Shown piece after piece: positions 14,511 to 61,771 of a stretch of DNA of 64,000 nucleotides. The stretch's first letter is position 1. The number at the start of each line of letters is the position of its first letter. The notes below the pieces were generated by a model. That model was not told the origin of the DNA. It did not search any database and saw only the letters and a program-made list of their open reading frames with translations. Source of the stretch: Jiangella alba (GTDB lineage Bacteria > Actinomycetota > Actinomycetes > Jiangellales > Jiangellaceae); assembly GCF_900106035.1 (NCBI RefSeq), contig NZ_FNUC01000004.1, positions 744,001 through 808,000 on the forward strand, given 5' to 3'. The position numbers and the translations under genes are program-made.

Positions 14511-14545
14511 CTGCCTGTCGAGGGGGCGCAGCCGCCGGTGGCGCG

Positions 14546-15200
14546 GCGCTCGGGAGGTCCGCAGAACGACGCTCGATCAGTCGGCGGCGCTCGGACGGCC
14601 GGCGGCCTGCGGTAGACGGCGCGGCACTCAGGCGGCCGGCCGGCGGCGCAGCGCTCGGGCGGTCCGCTGAACGACGCTCGATCAGTCGGCGGCGCGCGGC
14701 ACTCGGTCTGCCGACGCTCGATCGGTCGGCGGCCGGTGGCGCGCGGCACTCGGTCGGTCGGCGGCGTGCGGTAGACGGAACCGGCGCTCGGGAGGTCCGC
14801 GGAACGACGCTCGATCGGTCGGCGGCCGGTGGCGTGCGGTGGCCCGGCCGGAACGGCGCGGCGTGCGGCGGCCGAACGGTGGTCAAGCGGCGGTGCGGCA
14901 CTCAGGCGCCGGCTGGTAGCACGGCGGCCGGCGGTACGGCGGCCGGCGGCACGGCGGCGTGCGGCCGGTGGCGTGCGGCCGGCAGGACGGCGCCCGGGCG
15001 GTCGGTCCGCGGAACGGCGCGACAGCCTGCGGGCCGATGGGGGCGGGACGCGCGGGCCAACCCCCGGATCGAGGCACGGCCCGGCGACGGCCCACTCGGC
15101 GACGGCGACGACGGCCGACCCGACGACGCACAGCCCGGCAACGCACGACCCGGCGACGGCCGACCCGGAGACGCGCGGCTCGCCCCACACCCGAGCAGCG
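14546..15200. repeat. Degenerate interspersed repeats in the ssd-6C intergenic region
   Basis: A unit of about 43 bp, beginning GCGCTCGGGAGGTCCGC and ending GACGCTCGATCGGTCGGCGG, recurs at 14546-14588, 14651-14693 and 14784-14826. Partial copies lie at about 14708-14733 and 14992-15025. The spacers also repeat (GGCCGGTGGCGTGCGG, GCGGTAGACGG). From about 15070 to 15180 a second family built on CCCGGCGACGGCC follows. Open frames exist on both strands but none resembles a protein. I see no gene between ssd and the 6C RNA. Confidence 0.7.
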
Positions 15201-20602: not shown

Positions 20603-22056
20603 CCACCACCGACGTCGCGCCACGGGCCGGTCGCCGCGAGTACGCCGGCCTCGCCGTCCTCACGCTGCCCACCACACTCGTCTCGCTGGACATGAGCGTG
20701 CTGTACCTCGCGCTGCCGCATCTCGGCGCCGACCTCGGCGCGAGCAGCCTGCAGCAGCTGTGGATCACCGACGTGTACGGGTTCATGGTCGCCGGGCTGC
20801 TGATCACGATGGGCACCATCGGCGACCGCATCGGCCGGCGCCGGCTGCTGCTCATCGGCGCCGCCGCGTTCACCGTCGCGTCGGTCGTGGCCGCCTACTC
20901 CACCAGCGCCGAGATGCTCATCGTCAGCCGCGCGCTCCTGGGTGTCGCCGGCGCCACGCTGATGCCGTCGACGCTGACCCTGATCAGCACGATGTTCCGC
21001 GACCCACGCCAGCACGGCATGGCCATCGCCATCTGGATGGCCTGCTTCATGGGCGGCCTGGCGCTCGGCCCGATCATCGGCGGCGTGCTGCTGGAGCACT
21101 TCTGGTGGGGCTCGGTGTTCCTCCTCGGCGTGCCGGTCATGCTGCTGCTCCTGGTCACCGGTCCGGCGGTGCTGCCCGAGTACCGCAACCCAGCGGGCGG
21201 GCGGCTCGACCCAGCCAGCGTCGTGCTCTGCCTGGGGACGGTGCTGCCGCTGGTCTACGGGCTGAAGGAGATCTCCCGCGACGGCGTCAGGGTGCTGCCC
21301 GCGGCGGCGGTCGTCGTCGGGCTGCTGGCCGGACGCTGGTTCGTCCGGAGGCAGCGGCGACTCGCCGAGCCCATGCTCGACCTCCGGCTGTTCGGCAACC
21401 GGACGTTCACCGCTGGGCTGACCATCTCGACGATCGCCGGCGTCATGGCCGGCAGCCAGCTGTTCGTCTATCTGTACCTTCAGCTGGTGGCCGGGCTGTC
21501 GCCGCTCGACGCCGCGTTGTGGCTGCTGCCGTCGGCGCTCGTGACGATCGTCAGCCTGCAGGTCGCGCCGCTCCTCGCCCGGCGATTCGCGCCGGCGCGG
21601 GTCATGGCGGCCGGGCTCGTACTCGTGGCCGCGGGATACGTCCTACTCACCCGGGTCGACGGGTCCGGCTCACTCGGTTTGCTGATCACCGGTCTCGTCG
21701 TGACGGCGGTCGGCATCGGGCCGATGGCCGGGCTCAGCATGGGGCTGGCGCTCGGCTCCGTCCAGCCCGAGCAGGCTGGCTCGGCGGCGGCCATGTCCGA
21801 GACGGCGGGCGAGTTCGGCATCGCCGCCGGGGTCGCCGTCATGGGGGTCATCGGCACCGCGATCTACCGCCACGGCGCCGACGCCGACCAACTGCCCGCC
21901 CCCGGCGTCGACCTCGCCGCCGACGTGCGCGACGCGCTGGCCGGCGCTCTCAACGGCACGGCCACCGTGAGCGCGGCCATCGCCGTCGGCCTCGGTGTGC
22001 TCGCGCTGGCCGGTCTGCGCCACGTTCGTCCGGTCGGCGCCCAGGAGCCGACATGA
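20599..22056 (+). CDS. MFS drug exporter, DHA2 (EmrB/SmvA) type, 14 TM
   Basis: This 485-aa protein has motif A-like GTIGDRIGRRRLLLIGA between helices 2 and 3, motif C-like MGGLALGPIIGGVLLEHFWW, and 14 predicted helices, as in DHA2 proton-driven multidrug pumps (SmvA/QacA). The N-terminal LDMSVLYLALPHL contains motif D1. It is third in the regulator-SRPBCC-MFS operon, coupled by ATGA. It may export a cationic or lipophilic toxicant. Confidence 0.92.
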   Translation: MTTTDVAPRAGRREYAGLAVLTLPTTLVSLDMSVLYLALPHLGADLGASSLQQLWITDVYGFMVAGLLITMGTIGDRIGRRRLLLIGAAAFTVASVVAAYSTSAEMLIVSRALLGVAGATLMPSTLTLISTMFRDPRQHGMAIAIWMACFMGGLALGPIIGGVLLEHFWWGSVFLLGVPVMLLLLVTGPAVLPEYRNPAGGRLDPASVVLCLGTVLPLVYGLKEISRDGVRVLPAAAVVVGLLAGRWFVRRQRRLAEPMLDLRLFGNRTFTAGLTISTIAGVMAGSQLFVYLYLQLVAGLSPLDAALWLLPSALVTIVSLQVAPLLARRFAPARVMAAGLVLVAAGYVLLTRVDGSGSLGLLITGLVVTAVGIGPMAGLSMGLALGSVQPEQAGSAAAMSETAGEFGIAAGVAVMGVIGTAIYRHGADADQLPAPGVDLAADVRDALAGALNGTATVSAAIAVGLGVLALAGLRHVRPVGAQEPT

Positions 22057-22099
22057 CGCCCCGTCCGGCTCCGGCGTCGGCCGGTCCGCCCATCCAGCC

Positions 22100-22430
22100 C
22101 GGTGCCCGTGGTCCCGGAGACCGCGACCCGGGTGCCCGAAGTCTCGGCGGCCGCGACCCCGGTGCCCGCAACCCCGGCGGCCGCGACCCCGGTGCCCACA
22201 GCCCCGGCGCCCGCAACCCCGGCGCCCACAGCCCCGGTGCGCGGATCCGAACGACCGGCGGTCGCATGGCCGCGTATCGGTCTGGCCCGAGCGGCCGGTC
22301 GACGCCGGCCCAGACGACGCGGGCCCGGACGACGCCGGCCCGGACGACGCCGGCCTGGACGACGCGGGCCCGGACGACGCGGGCCCGGACGACGCCGGCT
22401 TGGACGAACTGCGCCCACACGAGCCGCCGG
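22100..22430. repeat. Two 15-bp tandem repeat arrays between MFS and phosphotransferase genes
   Basis: About 22120-22245 is built of 15-bp units of the type CGCGACCCCGGTGCC / CACAGCCCCGGCGCC. About 22310-22410 is built of units of the type GACGACGCGGGCCCG. One frame (22053-22487) is open throughout; its ATG overlaps the MFS stop and its TGA overlaps the next GTG. That frame encodes pentapeptides (GARNP, GGRDP, GAHSP, then TTRAR, TTPAW). Another frame, continuous with the phosphotransferase, reads DDAGP repeats in the second array. Neither frame is clearly coding, so I list the region as repeats. Confidence 0.8.
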
Positions 22431-26184: not shown

Positions 26185-26265
26185 CGGAGCTCGCGGCGCA
26201 GCCACGCCCGGCATCCGAGCCAGCGGCACACGGGAGCCGTGCGGGTTGCGCCGTGGTAGGCATGA

Positions 26266-26310
26266 CCCTCCCGGCCCGGGTGGGGCCCACCCTACGGGCG
26301 GGCACCGACA
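26266..26310 (+). repeat. Dispersed palindromic element, copy 1 (intergenic)
   Basis: The right half (CCCACCCTACGGGCGGGC, then ACCGACA) is identical to the intragenic copies; the left half (CCCTCCCGGCCCGGGTGGGG) has diverged. It lies between the methyltransferase and the iron transporter. Related copies lie at 29835-29880, 30099-30144 and 60673-60718. Confidence 0.8.
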
Positions 26311-28627: not shown

Positions 28628-29426
28628 ACCCCGGCTGCACGGGAACGACCTCACGCTCGCATACGACGAGCGGGTCATCTCCCGCGAGCTGTCCGTGTCG
28701 ATCCCGGACGGGTCGTTCACGGTGATCGTCGGGCCGAACGCGTGCGGCAAGTCGACGCTGCTGCGCGCGCTGGCCCGCATGCTCAAGCCGTCAGCCGGCG
28801 CCGTGCATCTGGACGGCCAGCTGATCACCCAGTACTCGACGAAGGAGGCGGCGCGCCGGCTCGGGCTGCTGCCGCAGTCGTCGATCGCGCCCGAGGGCAT
28901 CACCGTCGCCGATCTCGTGTCGCGCGGCCGGTACCCGCACCAGCGGCTGTTCCGGCAGTGGTCCGGCGCCGACACCGAGGCGGTGGCGGACGCGATGGCG
29001 AACACGGGCATCACCGACCTGCGGCACCGCCGGGTGGACGAGCTGTCCGGGGGGCAGCGGCAGCGGGTCTGGCTGGCGATGGTACTGGCGCAGCAGACGC
29101 CGATCCTGCTGCTGGACGAGCCGACGACGTTCCTCGACATCGCGCACCAGATCGAGGTGCTCGACCTCTGCCACGACCTGCACGTGTCGCACGGCCGCAC
29201 ACTGGTCGCCGTCCTGCACGACCTCAACCACGCCTGCCGCTACGCGACCCACCTGATCGCGATGCGCGACGGCGAGATCGTCGCCGAGGGCGCGCCGTCG
29301 GCCATCGTCGACGAGACGCTGGTGCGTGACGTGTTCGGGCTGGCCTGCCGCATCATCGACGACCCCGAGACCGGCACGCCGCTGGTCATCCCGGCCGCGA
29401 AGCAGCCGGTCGTCACCACGGCGTGA
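28620..29426 (+). CDS. Ferric-siderophore ABC ATPase (FecE/FepC type)
   Basis: This 268-aa protein has Walker A GPNACGKST, Q-loop LPQSSIAPEGITV, signature LSGGQRQRVW, Walker B ILLLDEPTTFLD and H-loop LHDLNHACRYA. The DIAHQIEVLDL segment is typical of FepC. ATG 28620 overlaps the permease stop by 8 bp. Its 3' end overlaps the convergent LysR gene by 14 bp. Confidence 0.95.
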   Translation: MSEPRLHGNDLTLAYDERVISRELSVSIPDGSFTVIVGPNACGKSTLLRALARMLKPSAGAVHLDGQLITQYSTKEAARRLGLLPQSSIAPEGITVADLVSRGRYPHQRLFRQWSGADTEAVADAMANTGITDLRHRRVDELSGGQRQRVWLAMVLAQQTPILLLDEPTTFLDIAHQIEVLDLCHDLHVSHGRTLVAVLHDLNHACRYATHLIAMRDGEIVAEGAPSAIVDETLVRDVFGLACRIIDDPETGTPLVIPAAKQPVVTTA

Positions 29427-30759
29427 ACTCGGCGGCCGCCTCGCGCAGCGCCGTCCGGAACGCCTGGACGGGGAGCGGGGCGGGCGAGCGGCCGTAGGTG
29501 GCGACGGCGACGGTGCGGCCGTCGCCGGGCAGCGGGTCGGCCCGGACGCCGGGATGACGGTTCGCCGTCAGCGCCAGCCCGGGCAGCGTGCTCACCCCGA
29601 GCCCGGCCGCGACCAGCGCCTGGACCGCCACGTAGTCGTCGGTCTCGAACGCGATGGCGGGCGTGAACCCGGCCCGCTCGCAGGACGCGACGAGGTGCGC
29701 GCGGCACCGCTCGCACCCGGCGATCCAGCGGGCGCCGGCGAACGCGGCGAGAGCGCCGGCGGGACCGGCGCGCGCGTCACCGGCCGGTGCGCCAGCGGCC
29801 GGCGCGTCACCGGCGGGATCGGCGCGCGCGAGTCTGTCGGTGCCCGCCCGTAGGGTGGGCACCCTCCCAGCCGGGCGGGGACCGAACTCCGCGTCATCGG
29901 CGCGCGCGGCGCCGGCCGGCACGTCACCAGCCGGCAAGTCATCGGCGAGCTCGGCGCGCGCGTCAGCGGCCGGCGCGTCACCGGCGACCGTGTCGCCCTC
30001 GAGCGCATCACCGGCCCGCAAGCCACCAGCCGGCGCGTCACCGGCCGGCGCGTCACCAGCGGCCGGCGCGCCAGCGGCGGGATCGGCGCGCGCGAGTCTG
30101 TCGGTGCCCGCCCGTAGGGTGGGCACCCTCCCAGCCGGGCGGCGACCGAACTCCGCGTCGCCGACGAGCGCATCACCGGCCGGCACGTCACCACCCAGCG
30201 CGTCATCGACGAGCTCAGCACCAGCAAGCTCGGCAGCGGCCGGGGTCACGAGGTAGAGCGGCTCGGTGAGCAGCGGCTCGACCGTCACGCCGCGTTCCTC
30301 CAGCGGGCCGTGTGCGAAGACGACCGCGACGTCGACGGCGCCGGTGCGCAGGGCCGTCATCGCGGCCGGCGGCTCGGCCTCGGTGAGCGCCAGCTCGACG
30401 TCCGGATGCGCGGCCGCGAACCGGGCCGCTGCCGCCGGAACCAGCGTGGCCAGCGCCGACGGGAACGCCGCCAGCCGGACCCGGCCGGTGCGCAGGCCCG
30501 CGTGCGCCGACAGCTCCGTCTCGGCCGCCTCGACCTGGCCCAGGATCTCCTCGGCCCGCCGCGCCAGCAGCTCGCCCGCCTCGGTGAGCCGCAGCCCGCG
30601 GCCGGCCCGCTGGGTCAGCGGCAGCCCCACCTCCGCCTCGAGCCGGGCGAGATGGTGACTGACGGAGGGCTGGGCGTAGTGCAGTGCGTCGGCGGCCGCC
30701 GTGACCGACCCCTCGCGGGCGACCGCCACCAGCACCCGCAACCGGGTCAGATCCAGCAT
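29413..30759 (-). CDS. LysR-family regulator with about 150-aa repeat insertion
   Basis: This 448-aa protein is about half as long again as a usual LysR (near 300). The HTH (residues 1-60, LRVLVAVAREGSVTAAADAL) and first effector half (to about 175) are normal. The second half resumes at about 336 (AAFAGARWIAGCERCRAHL, then VQALVAAGLGVSTLPG). Between them lie about 160 residues of APAGD-type pentapeptides with two copies of RPAGRVPTLRAGTD. The frame is intact. ATG 30759 starts the domain. It is divergent from the PLP dehydratase (73 bp), its probable target. Whether it still senses a ligand is doubtful. Confidence 0.9.
   Translation of the reverse strand: MLDLTRLRVLVAVAREGSVTAAADALHYAQPSVSHHLARLEAEVGLPLTQRAGRGLRLTEAGELLARRAEEILGQVEAAETELSAHAGLRTGRVRLAAFPSALATLVPAAAARFAAAHPDVELALTEAEPPAAMTALRTGAVDVAVVFAHGPLEERGVTVEPLLTEPLYLVTPAAAELAGAELVDDALGGDVPAGDALVGDAEFGRRPAGRVPTLRAGTDRLARADPAAGAPAAGDAPAGDAPAGGLRAGDALEGDTVAGDAPAADARAELADDLPAGDVPAGAARADDAEFGPRPAGRVPTLRAGTDRLARADPAGDAPAAGAPAGDARAGPAGALAAFAGARWIAGCERCRAHLVASCERAGFTPAIAFETDDYVAVQALVAAGLGVSTLPGLALTANRHPGVRADPLPGDGRTVAVATYGRSPAPLPVQAFRTALREAAAEFTPW
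29835..29880 (-). repeat. Dispersed palindromic element, copy 2 (inside LysR gene)
   Basis: Read on the minus strand the outer arms are CCCGCCCG and CGGGCGGG, with an inner AGGGTG/CACCCT hairpin and a CACCGACA tail. It encodes RPAGRVPTLRAGTD in the LysR frame. It lies inside a longer direct duplication shared with copy 3 (about 29815-29895 against 30079-30160). Confidence 0.88.
30099..30144 (-). repeat. Dispersed palindromic element, copy 3 (inside LysR gene)
   Basis: It is nearly identical to copy 2 (one difference in the first arm) and encodes the same peptide in the same frame. The flanks GGGATCGGCGCGCGCGAGTC and ACCGAACTCCGCGTC are shared with copy 2, so these two arose by local duplication. 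Confidence 0.88.
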
Positions 30760-59190: not shown

Positions 59191-60191
59191 CGGTGACCAT
59201 GGGCAAGGCGCTCAACGCCGCCCTGCGCGACGCGATGCGCGAGGACGACACCGTCCTGATGTTCGGCGAGGACGTCGGCCCGCTCGGCGGCGTCTTCCGG
59301 GTCACCGACGGCCTGGCCGCCGAGTTCGGCGACGACCGCTGCTTCGACACCCCGCTGGCCGAGGCCGGCATCGTCGGCCTGGCCGTCGGCATGGCGATGA
59401 ACGGCTTCCGCCCCGTCGTCGAGATGCAGTTCGACGCGTTCGCCTACCCGGCGTTCGAGCAGATCGCCTCGCACGTCGCGAAGATGCGCAACCGCACCCG
59501 CGGCGCCGTCGGCCTGCCGATGGTCATCCGGGTTCCGTACGCGGGCGGTATCGGCGGCGTCGAGCACCACTCCGACTCCTCCGAGGCGTACTACGCGCAC
59601 ACGCCCGGCCTCAAGGTCGTCACGCCGGCCACCGTCGCCGACGCCTACTCGCTGCTGCGCGAGGCGATCGCCGACCCGGACCCGGTCGTGTTCATGGAGC
59701 CGAAGAAGTTGTACTGGGCCAAGGACGAGGTGACGCTGCCGGTTACTGCTCCGCCGTTCGGTTCTGCCGTGGTGCGGCGGGCCGGTACGGACGCGACGCT
59801 GGTCGCGTACGGGCCGGCGGTGCCGGTGGCGCTGGAGGCGGCGGAGGCCGCCGCGTCGGAGGGGCGCTCGCTGGAGGTCGTGGACCTGCGCACGCTGGTG
59901 CCGTTCGACGACGCGACGGTCGCGGAGTCCGTGCGCAAGACCGGCCGATGCGTCGTCGTCGCCGAGGCCACGGGGTTCGCCAGCGTGTCCGCCGAGATCG
60001 CGGCGCGCGTGCAGGAGCGCTGCTTCCACTCACTGTGGGCGCCGGTGCTGCGGGTGACCGGCTGGGACGTGCCGTTCCCGCCGCCGGTCCTGGAGAAGTA
60101 CCAGCTGCCCGGCGTCGACCGCGTCCTCGACACCGTCGATCGGCTGCAGTTCGACGACGCGCCGGACCCGCGATTCGTGGGGGCGCCGTGA
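59187..60191 (+). CDS. bkdB: Branched-chain 2-oxoacid dehydrogenase E1 beta
   Basis: This 334-aa transketolase-like subunit has LMFGEDVGPLGGVFRVT, FDTPLAEAGIVGLAVGMA, PYAGGIGGVEHHSDSSEAYYAHTPGLKVV and SLEVVDLRTLVPFD. It pairs with E1 alpha. Its ATG and stop overlap the neighbours as ATGA and GTGA. Confidence 0.95.
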   Translation: MTVTMGKALNAALRDAMREDDTVLMFGEDVGPLGGVFRVTDGLAAEFGDDRCFDTPLAEAGIVGLAVGMAMNGFRPVVEMQFDAFAYPAFEQIASHVAKMRNRTRGAVGLPMVIRVPYAGGIGGVEHHSDSSEAYYAHTPGLKVVTPATVADAYSLLREAIADPDPVVFMEPKKLYWAKDEVTLPVTAPPFGSAVVRRAGTDATLVAYGPAVPVALEAAEAAASEGRSLEVVDLRTLVPFDDATVAESVRKTGRCVVVAEATGFASVSAEIAARVQERCFHSLWAPVLRVTGWDVPFPPPVLEKYQLPGVDRVLDTVDRLQFDDAPDPRFVGAP

Positions 60192-61771
60192 CGGACGAGA
60201 CACGCTTCTCAGTCGAGTCCGAAAGGGAACCGGACCGCACCTTCTACCTACCTGACCTCGGCGAGGGCTTGACGGAGGCCGAGATCGTCGCCTGGCGCGT
60301 CTCGGTCGGCGACGTCGTGGCTGTCGATGACGTGGTGGTCGACGTCGAGACCGCGAAGGCGACGGTCGAGGTGCCGTGCCCGCACGCCGGTCGCGTGGTC
60401 ACCCTGCACGGCGCCGCGGGATCGACGATCGAGGTGGGCGCGCCGCTCATCACCGTCGCCGGGCCCGACGCCGGTCCCGACGCCGGTCCCGACGCCGGTG
60501 CGGCAGGCGGCGGCGACGCGGCGGAGTCGGGCGCCGTGCTGGTCGGGTACGGCACCGGGAACGCGACGTTGGCCCGGCGGGCACGCGGGCGAACGGCGAC
60601 GGTTCCGGCGGCGTCGTCGGCTTCTTCTGCGACGGTTTCGGCGGCGGCGACGTCGGTTTCGGCCGAGGTGACACCCCGCCCGGCCGGGAGGGCCCCCACC
60701 CTACGGGCGGGCACCGACAACCTCGAGCGCGCGGCGCACGTCGACCCAGCAGCGCACGGCGATCCAGCAGCGCACGGCGGCCCGGCGGCGCAGGGCGGCC
60801 CGGCGGCGCAGGGCGGCCCGGCGACGACCGGCGGCCCAGCGACGACCGGCGGAGCGCCACGCGTGCTCTCGCCGGTGGTCCGGCGGCTGGCGCGCGACCA
60901 CGGCATCGACGTGCGGGTGGTCAGCGGCTCGGGTCGCGGCGGCGTGATCCTCCGCCGCGACGTCGAGGCCGCCGCGGCGAACGGGACCGCCACGAGCAAC
61001 GGCACGGCCGCGGGCGACGCCGCCACGGCGCCACCTCAAGCGCCACCACAGCGGACCTCGCAGCCGATTCCGTCAGACCGGAGAGAACCCCTGCGGGGAG
61101 TGCGCCGCGCCGTCGCGGAGAAGCTGGCGCGCAGCCGGCGCGAGATCCCCGACGCCACCACGTGGGTCGACGTCGACGCGACGGGGCTGGTGGAGGCGCG
61201 CGACGCGCTGCGGGCGGCCGCACCGGACCGCCCCGTCGGCCTGCTGGCGCTGCTCGGACGCATCACCGTCACCGCGCTGGCTCGCTTCCCCGAGCTGAAC
61301 GCCTCCGTCGAGCAGGACGGCGACGAGCTCGTCCTCGTGCGCCACCAGCAGGTCGGCCTCGGCTTCGCCGCGCAGACCGACCGCGGCCTCGTCGTCCCCG
61401 TGGTCCACGACGCCCAGGAGCTCACGACCGCCGAACTGGCCGCGGAGCTGGCCCGCCTCACCGACGCCGCCCGCGCCGGCACGCTCACCCCGGCGGACCT
61501 CACCGGCGGCACCGTCACCCTCAACAACTACGGGGTCTTCGGCGTCGACGGCTCGACCCCGATCATCAACCACCCCGAGGCGGCGCTGCTCGGCGTCGGG
61601 CGCATCGTCGACAAGCCCTGGGTGGTCGACGGGCAGCTGGCGGTCCGCAAGGTCACCCAGCTCTCGCTCAGCTTCGACCACCGGGTCTGCGACGGCGGCG
61701 TCGCCGGCGGCTTCCTGCGCTACGTCGCCGACCGCGTCGAGTCGCCGCTCGGGCTACTCCTCGACCTCTGA
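60188..61771 (+). CDS. bkdC: Branched-chain 2-oxoacid dehydrogenase E2 with repeat-expanded linker
   Basis: This 527-aa dihydrolipoamide acyltransferase has an N-terminal lipoyl domain with the modified lysine in VDVETAKATVEVP. A long linker follows, then the E3-binding motif (SPVVRRLARDHGIDVRVVSGSGRGG) and a catalytic domain with SFDHRVCDGGV. The first linker holds GPDA repeats, an inserted palindromic element encoding RPAGRAPTLRAGTD, and an AAHGGPAAQGGP-type repeat array. GTG 60188 is coupled to E1 beta. Its 3' end overlaps the MarR-like gene by 18 bp. E3 is not in the window. Confidence 0.94.
   Translation: MTDETRFSVESEREPDRTFYLPDLGEGLTEAEIVAWRVSVGDVVAVDDVVVDVETAKATVEVPCPHAGRVVTLHGAAGSTIEVGAPLITVAGPDAGPDAGPDAGAAGGGDAAESGAVLVGYGTGNATLARRARGRTATVPAASSASSATVSAAATSVSAEVTPRPAGRAPTLRAGTDNLERAAHVDPAAHGDPAAHGGPAAQGGPAAQGGPATTGGPATTGGAPRVLSPVVRRLARDHGIDVRVVSGSGRGGVILRRDVEAAAANGTATSNGTAAGDAATAPPQAPPQRTSQPIPSDRREPLRGVRRAVAEKLARSRREIPDATTWVDVDATGLVEARDALRAAAPDRPVGLLALLGRITVTALARFPELNASVEQDGDELVLVRHQQVGLGFAAQTDRGLVVPVVHDAQELTTAELAAELARLTDAARAGTLTPADLTGGTVTLNNYGVFGVDGSTPIINHPEAALLGVGRIVDKPWVVDGQLAVRKVTQLSLSFDHRVCDGGVAGGFLRYVADRVESPLGLLLDL
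60673..60718 (+). repeat. Dispersed palindromic element, copy 4 (inside E2 linker)
   Basis: The outer arms are CCCGCCCG and CGGGCGGG, the inner GGGAGGG/CCCACCC, and the tail CACCGACA. It encodes RPAGRAPTLRAGTD in the E2 frame, followed by NLERA, matching RLARA after the LysR copies. It sits in a flexible linker between lipoyl and E3-binding domains. Confidence 0.88.

Follow-up and report, generated by a model that had tools for sequence, protein, structure and literature searches.

A GC-rich palindromic repeat family, nearly confined to Jiangella, that probably spreads as short non-autonomous insertions

The genome of Jiangella alba is confirmed to carry a real, dispersed, insertion-type palindromic repeat. 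The most probable reading (roughly 0.78) is that its copies belong to a GC-rich palindromic family with a 63–75-bp unit, near-confined to Jiangella, that spreads as non-autonomous insertions. The observations behind this reading are the dispersal of the copies, their presence in some species and absence from others, insert lengths of 63, 72 and 75 bp, the statistics of frame and position, and tandem pairs. The element was first noticed in the window, the whole 64-kb stretch of DNA analysed here, which belongs to a J. alba genome of 7.68 Mb in four contigs (G000). A preliminary description of the window had proposed that an actinomycete harbours a dispersed palindromic element, with further copies to be expected elsewhere in the genome. 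Both proposals hold: G000 contains 112 matches to the core of the element at up to three mismatches, and the reversed control contains none.

The 25-bp core, CCCACCCTACGGGCGGGCACCGACA, has four exact matches in the window (Table 1), with 0.00 expected and none of 100 shuffles reaching four. The four copies lie within one base of the positions first proposed, three of them in two genes, encoding a LysR-type regulator and an E2 acyltransferase, and one between genes, as had been described. The three in-gene copies also read as reported, giving RPAGR(A/V)PTLRAGTD followed by NLERA or RLARA. The claim of shared arms stands in part, as CCCGCCCG is exact only in two of the four copies and the other two have CCCTCCCG and GCCGCCCG, respectively. 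The three in-gene units are present as counted and are read here as two events: the two LysR copies sit in 164-nt units that are 264 bp apart and 90% identical, and are taken as one insertion plus a tandem duplication. The peptide is repeated in the window because two insertions share a frame and one of them was duplicated. In the LysR protein, the copies begin at approximately residues 205 and 293, and the E2 insert is located at approximately residue 162, in the linker between the lipoyl and E3-binding domains. The 46 bp originally given as the inserted unit is too short, since the insert measures 63–75 bp at the three tightest sites. At the site of the intergenic copy, the orthologous locus in the Jiangella genome G008 lacks the element and is 114 bp shorter.

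Table 1. Element copies, duplicated units and host genes in the 64-kb window
Feature	Position	Strand	Remarks
Core match	26286-26310	+	exact
Core match	29835-29859	-	exact
Core match	30099-30123	-	exact
Core match	60695-60719	+	exact
Intergenic 46-bp unit	26265-26310	+	preceding predicted gene 80 bp away, next one 98 bp on
46-bp unit in LysR, member of tandem pair	29835-29880	-	
46-bp unit in LysR, other member of tandem pair	30099-30144	-	
46-bp unit in E2	60674-60719	+	family alignment took 60659-60732
Duplicated unit with one LysR copy	29792-29955		164 nt, 90% identical to 30056-30219
Duplicated unit with other LysR copy	30056-30219		164 nt, partner of 29792-29955
Host gene, LysR-type regulator	29413-30759	-	HTH_1 4-63; LysR_substrate in two stretches, best 88-184
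Host gene, E2 acyltransferase	60188-61771	+	Biotin_lipoyl 18-89, E3_binding 227-260, 2-oxoacid_dh 296-524

The architecture and position of the element were examined in 102 copies, comprising every core match with at most four mismatches in 75 fetched G000 regions and the window; 12 of the 112 G000 core matches lie outside this set. The unit is composed of two adjacent imperfect palindromes around the core. The left palindrome differs by subfamily (for example, CCCGCCCGGCYGGGAGGG, CCCTCCCGGCCCGGGTGGG and CCCGCCCCTCTAGGGAGGG), and the right palindrome is almost constant, with CCCACCCTACGGGCGGG exact in 86 of 102 copies and preceded by G in 63, a constancy that is partly an artefact of the use of the right half as the search query. 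In its commonest form, read on the bottom strand, the right palindrome is GCCCGCCC-GTA-GGGTGGGC, a GTA loop on a stem of 8 bp that includes one G-T pair. The predicted consensus pairs are nearly invariant, and none of 10 has changes on both sides (covariation). Because these pairs hardly vary, the backing for the folded form comes from palindromy, and an RNA role is neither supported nor excluded. The DNA-fold z-scores of five typed versions of the element are -1.84, 0.04, -2.78, -2.14 and -0.84, and no Rfam family reaches its gathering score in the seven loci scanned, six of which are from G000. A diverged pair of elements, with four core mismatches each and 129 bp apart, is found at L164:766-919 in a predicted TPR-protein gene and is perhaps an older subfamily.

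As far as seen, the family is confined almost wholly to Jiangella. A core search of 40 genomes including G000 gives matches in 12, and outside Jiangella two of 28 genomes have a single match each. The 12 Jiangella genomes range from 0 to 181 matches (besides G000: G001, 24; G002, 34; G003, 0; G004, 17; G005, 0; G006, 6; G007, 63; G008, 4; G009, 65; G010, 181; G011, 38). Match coordinates in G004 and G007 are identical to those in J. anatolica and J. endophytica, on which basis the series of genomes is assigned to Jiangella. A covariance model puts G000 at 144 copies or more and G010 at 150 or more, 150 being the number scored, and finds no copy in G003 or G005. In the named genome collection, the exact core occurs in 84 stretches, and all 80 among the matches listed are from Jiangella, in five species. 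The core-free G003 and G005 cluster with high support in a tree of the E1–E2 region, which is poorly resolved otherwise (two of nine inner branches well supported), and the distribution of the element over the Jiangella tree is patchy.

Comparison of filled and empty sites shows the insert close to base resolution. A clear LysR orthologue is present in eight of the 12 genomes (G003, G005, G006 and G009 are not scored for lack of an orthologue or anchor); five carry the element in the same linker and three do not, and the tightest filled and empty pairs differ by 63 bp. The E2 orthologues contain the element in four of 12 genomes and lack it in eight. Orthologues without the peptide, which the preliminary description had singled out for comparison, exist in several Jiangella species for both genes, and together with the many further copies they leave its own refuting outcomes unrealised. 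In the L184 gene, the element is found in G000 alone among 10 aligned orthologues (G003 and G007 lack an orthologue or anchor) as an insert of 75 bp, the compared stretch being 225 bp in G000, 150 bp in six orthologues, 156 bp in two and 171 bp in one. In the L198 gene, a 72-bp insert is present in G000 and, decayed, in G007, and is absent from six other aligned orthologues (G001, G003, G004 and G005 lack an orthologue or anchor). The length differences at LysR, L184 and L198 are all multiples of three. In a stricter flank comparison, 47 element-to-locus comparisons are empty and 106 are filled, counts that include overlapping loci and empties owed to a tandem-pair member and that do not represent independent events; a first comparison, in which 59 of 124 elements had an empty counterpart, was inflated by tandem pairs. 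Filled sites are 27 to 725 bp longer than the matching empty ones, in most cases by more than 100 bp, which is beyond the length of the element.

Recent movement looks rare and the family mostly old, since the G000 copies testable in G010 give 22 filled and three empty comparisons. One of the three empties, L198, is tight; L199 is a member of a tandem pair; and L216, which matches at only 74–78%, may not be orthologous between the two genomes. A model in which each site was filled once and then inherited strictly vertically does not fit cleanly, as the element is found in five of eight LysR and four of 12 E2 orthologues, and at L198 it is present in G000 and G007 and absent from G009 and G010. 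Given the patchy sites and the poor resolution of the tree, loss is indistinguishable from allele exchange and from repeated insertion.

The ends of the element bear on the idea of a MITE that belongs to a DDE insertion sequence and is mobilised in trans via terminal inverted repeats. A short palindrome that is present in some species and absent from others fits this idea, as do the words enriched beside the copies, with CGTT (34), GTTC (25) and TTCG (30) on the left against 8.7, 12.0 and 12.1 expected, and GAAC (29) and CGAA (30) on the right against 10.1 and 8.8 expected, although other words are enriched as well and neither an end-specific duplication nor a paired end signal emerges. In an offset scan of the ends (99 of 102 copies after removal of near duplicates), the top z-scores are 3.0 for direct and 3.7 for inverted similarity versus 1.7–2.3 for shuffles, which were themselves included in the mean used to score them; the peaks fall in scattered places away from the ends. 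In an end-similarity test (98 of 102 copies), the two ends resemble each other in inverted orientation no more than shuffled pairs do. Direct similarity is above all 60 shuffles (z 3.1–3.5) and is equally strong 52–116 bp away (z 3.3–4.0); it therefore gives no sign of a target-site duplication and is ascribed to tandem repeats. Inspection of the joints by eye reveals no duplication at L184 and a possible imperfect one of approximately 11 bp at L198. When 100 contexts of 1.3 kb are compared all against all, no repeated gene appears beside the copies; this also weighs against a MITE of this kind, and the explanation is considered unlikely.

About a dozen of these contexts do share a composite repeat located between genes. 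This palindromic composite of approximately 0.5 kb, located upstream of nine to eleven copies, was considered as a master copy and rejected. The composite is repetitive in its own right, occurring in 10 of 12 genomes and matching 43 times in G008, where there are four core matches; we therefore regard it as a distinct family, some copies of which carry the element. A second dispersed repeat, at L172:3050-3197 and further G000 loci, is a long palindrome, GGGGGCGCGGG..AAGCGG / CCGCTT..CCCGCGCCCCC; in nine G000 loci the element lies 375–498 bp further on, and in eight of these a GATCATCC hairpin lies between the two. This palindrome matches in 10 of 12 Jiangella genomes and in neither of the two element-free ones.

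The element is associated with tandem duplication. In the G000 regions, all 12 pairs of copies separated by less than 500 bp have the same orientation, and the L154 locus has two copies in G000 and one in J. muralis. The tandem-repeat content of intergenic DNA is 27% beside single copies (39 spaces) versus 7% in 75 element-free spaces of at least 200 bp (P ~ 3e-9). Separated by gene orientation, it is 0.249 with the element versus 0.065 without in tandem spaces (P 2e-6), 0.305 versus 0.121 in convergent spaces, a modest difference (P 0.02), and 0.212 versus 0.027 in divergent spaces, only four of which have the element. Within genes, the copy is doubled in LysR of G000 and in E2 of G010, and the linkers of both proteins are longer where the element is present. 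Other tandem repeats are observed in the window at 22285-22421 (a 15-bp unit, approximately seven units, after a predicted gene ending at 22056), at 22098-22217 (a 30-bp unit, four times, 77–80% alike to the first) and at 14534-14863 (a 92-nt repeat, three copies, 78% and 63% alike to the first).

The tandem-repeat link and the direct-only close pairs also speak for a reading with no dedicated mover, in which hairpin-prone DNA gives rise to copies through replication slippage, template switching or gene conversion and the genome is rich in tandem duplications, and the searches that found no Y1_Tnp domain in the genus and no RVT_1 domain in genomes with copies point the same way. More than 100 dispersed sites are, however, hard to reach by local processes alone, and the genes with the 72- and 75-bp inserts have six and nine aligned orthologues, respectively, that lack the element; this explanation is given the same low standing as a MITE.

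Position relative to genes was assessed with gene calls from a home-made gene finder. Of the 102 copies, 77 are intergenic, four overlap a gene end and 21 lie within genes; the intergenic copies comprise 36 between convergent, 35 between tandem and six between divergent genes. When spaces of at least 60 bp are counted, 32 convergent, 32 tandem and five divergent spaces bear the element, versus 20, 94 and 99 element-free spaces in the same regions (P ~ 7e-14), a strong excess of copies in convergent-gene spaces. REPs are likewise placed mainly between unidirectional and convergent genes in the available parts of a REP survey (PMC3733652). A functional site behind genes (a transcription end, or a supercoiling or nucleoid site) kept by selection would account for the share of convergent spaces, 32 of 69 element-bearing against 20 of 213 element-free; two Jiangella genomes with no core matches and two others with four and six speak against it, making it improbable as an explanation of the family, and some copies may have acquired a role of this kind secondarily.

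Two families of candidate movers, Y1_Tnp and RVT_1, were covered by the search. Y1_Tnp (PF01797, E <= 0.001) is found in none of the 12 Jiangella genomes and in five of 14 control genomes, and RVT_1 is absent from all Jiangella genomes with copies, its one positive among the 12 being the copy-free G005, where a single reverse transcriptase match is located at L301. A reverse transcriptase of a retro-element and a RAYT/Y1 enzyme were thus both rejected as movers. For a classical REP, mobilised by the Y1 tyrosine transposase RAYT through cleavage of a single-stranded hairpin at GTAG, the small palindromes and the convergent excess are as in the REPs of the survey's available parts (PMC3733652), and 49 of 102 copies do have GTAG at -40 to -20 relative to the core. 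The motif is nevertheless missing from over half of the copies and, mostly at -31/-30, lies some bases off the stem rather than abutting it, and the orientation of close pairs differs from the head-to-head or tail-to-tail dimers described there for REPs; together with the missing Y1_Tnp domain, these features make a RAYT-moved REP very improbable.

The 21 genic copies reside in 18 predicted genes and are read in several ways: 14 are sense (phases 0, 1 and 2 in seven, five and two copies) and seven antisense (phase 1 in six, phase 0 in one). Five of the six frames are used, and the unused antisense frame is closed by a stop in 99 of 102 copies. Within the 46-bp unit, stops interrupt the three sense frames in 3, 26 and 9 of the 102 copies and the two used antisense frames in 3 and 2; over 64 bp, the sense-frame counts rise to 31, 47 and 17. 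Insertion in a single frame is therefore not the typical behaviour that had been suggested, with 21 of 102 copies genic, on both strands and in several phases, and RPAGRxPTLRAGTD is one of several readings of the element. Pfam matches are found in 14 of the 18 host genes, including a GlnD-like uridylyltransferase, TilS (tRNA-lysidine synthetase), ABC transporters and the E2 acyltransferase. Thirteen of these 14 genes, against 7.5 expected, carry the insert outside their best-matching Pfam stretches, the lone in-domain insert being in an Exo_endo_phos protein; the test used the best stretch per family, and with a LysR copy that lies between two stretches of one domain counted as inside, the figure is 12 of 14. 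The proposal that unrelated genes carry copies in frame, for the most part in linkers, is thus borne out by the Pfam positions and by inserts that keep the frame. An ancestral or selected protein motif, suggested by the near-identical peptide in LysR and E2 and its retention in several species, is refuted as a general explanation and has almost no probability, with 77 of 102 copies intergenic, the genic ones in several frames on both strands, and the peptide missing from three of eight LysR and eight of 12 E2 orthologues.

The element works like a REP or a Rickettsia palindromic element (RPE) and conforms in full to neither definition. Its likeness to RPEs, which had been proposed at the outset, holds for a dispersed palindrome found in frame inside unrelated genes and fails for the use of several frames; the convergent intergenic excess is as in REPs. 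In the available parts of a MITE review, RPEs are approximately 150 bp with one conserved peptide, and their in-frame fusions are described (PMC10969869). The Jiangella element, in contrast, is 63–75 bp long and gives different peptides, and it resides in an actinomycete rather than Rickettsia, the likeness being one of description. RPE-4 and RPE-6 are assigned to CGTC-tagged REP families, which seem to be without a dedicated transposase, in the corresponding passages of the REP survey (PMC3733652); unlike these, the present element has CGTC in 36 of 102 copies, at +24 to +34 of the core, with no stem adjoining.

Similar to REPs, the Jiangella repeats are small palindromes with many copies between convergent or unidirectional genes and with intragenic cases, which the same passages report for REPs in several species (PMC3733652). 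They differ from RAYT-moved GTAG REPs in that no Y1_Tnp was found in the genus and in the placement of GTAG, and from REP dimers in that close pairs are direct. The survey also describes, in these parts, untagged REP-like families, including one in Mycobacterium tuberculosis, an actinobacterium (PMC3733652); the present element resembles them, at the level of that description, in being palindromic with no conserved terminal tetranucleotide. As with the MITEs of the review's available text (PMC10969869), it is short, non-autonomous and capable of possible in-frame fusions, and it may depart from them in that no end-specific duplication, paired end signal or partner element was found. The J. gansuensis genome paper, in its accessible parts, mentions CRISPR as the only repeats, and a literature search of open-licence papers found no report of the present Jiangella repeat family.

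For the preferred reading of a non-autonomous insertion family, new copies would insert as short DNA and persist mainly where they do little harm, in keeping with the convergent-gene excess; the position bias would then stem from selection rather than targeting. A trans-acting enzyme may move the element, perhaps acting on a hairpin form. A minority of copies land in genes; because most copies are open in five of six frames, an in-gene insert can persist as an extra stretch of linker if its length is a multiple of three and it falls between domains. After insertion, the element and its flank would often be duplicated in tandem, a second and local process that lengthens spacers and linkers. A more specific proposal, that a hairpin element moves without a Y1 transposase or reverse transcriptase and provokes tandem duplication, generating spacers and protein linkers, is doubtful at present.

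In-frame palindromic elements have been described from Rickettsia and several REP-bearing species in the available portions of both sources (PMC3733652, PMC10969869). Jiangella provides a series within one genus that runs from 0 to 181 core matches, includes several single-contig genomes and offers filled and empty sites near base resolution. The most interesting part of the finding is that the element is tied to tandem duplication and to the lengthening of linkers, a connection open to direct testing.
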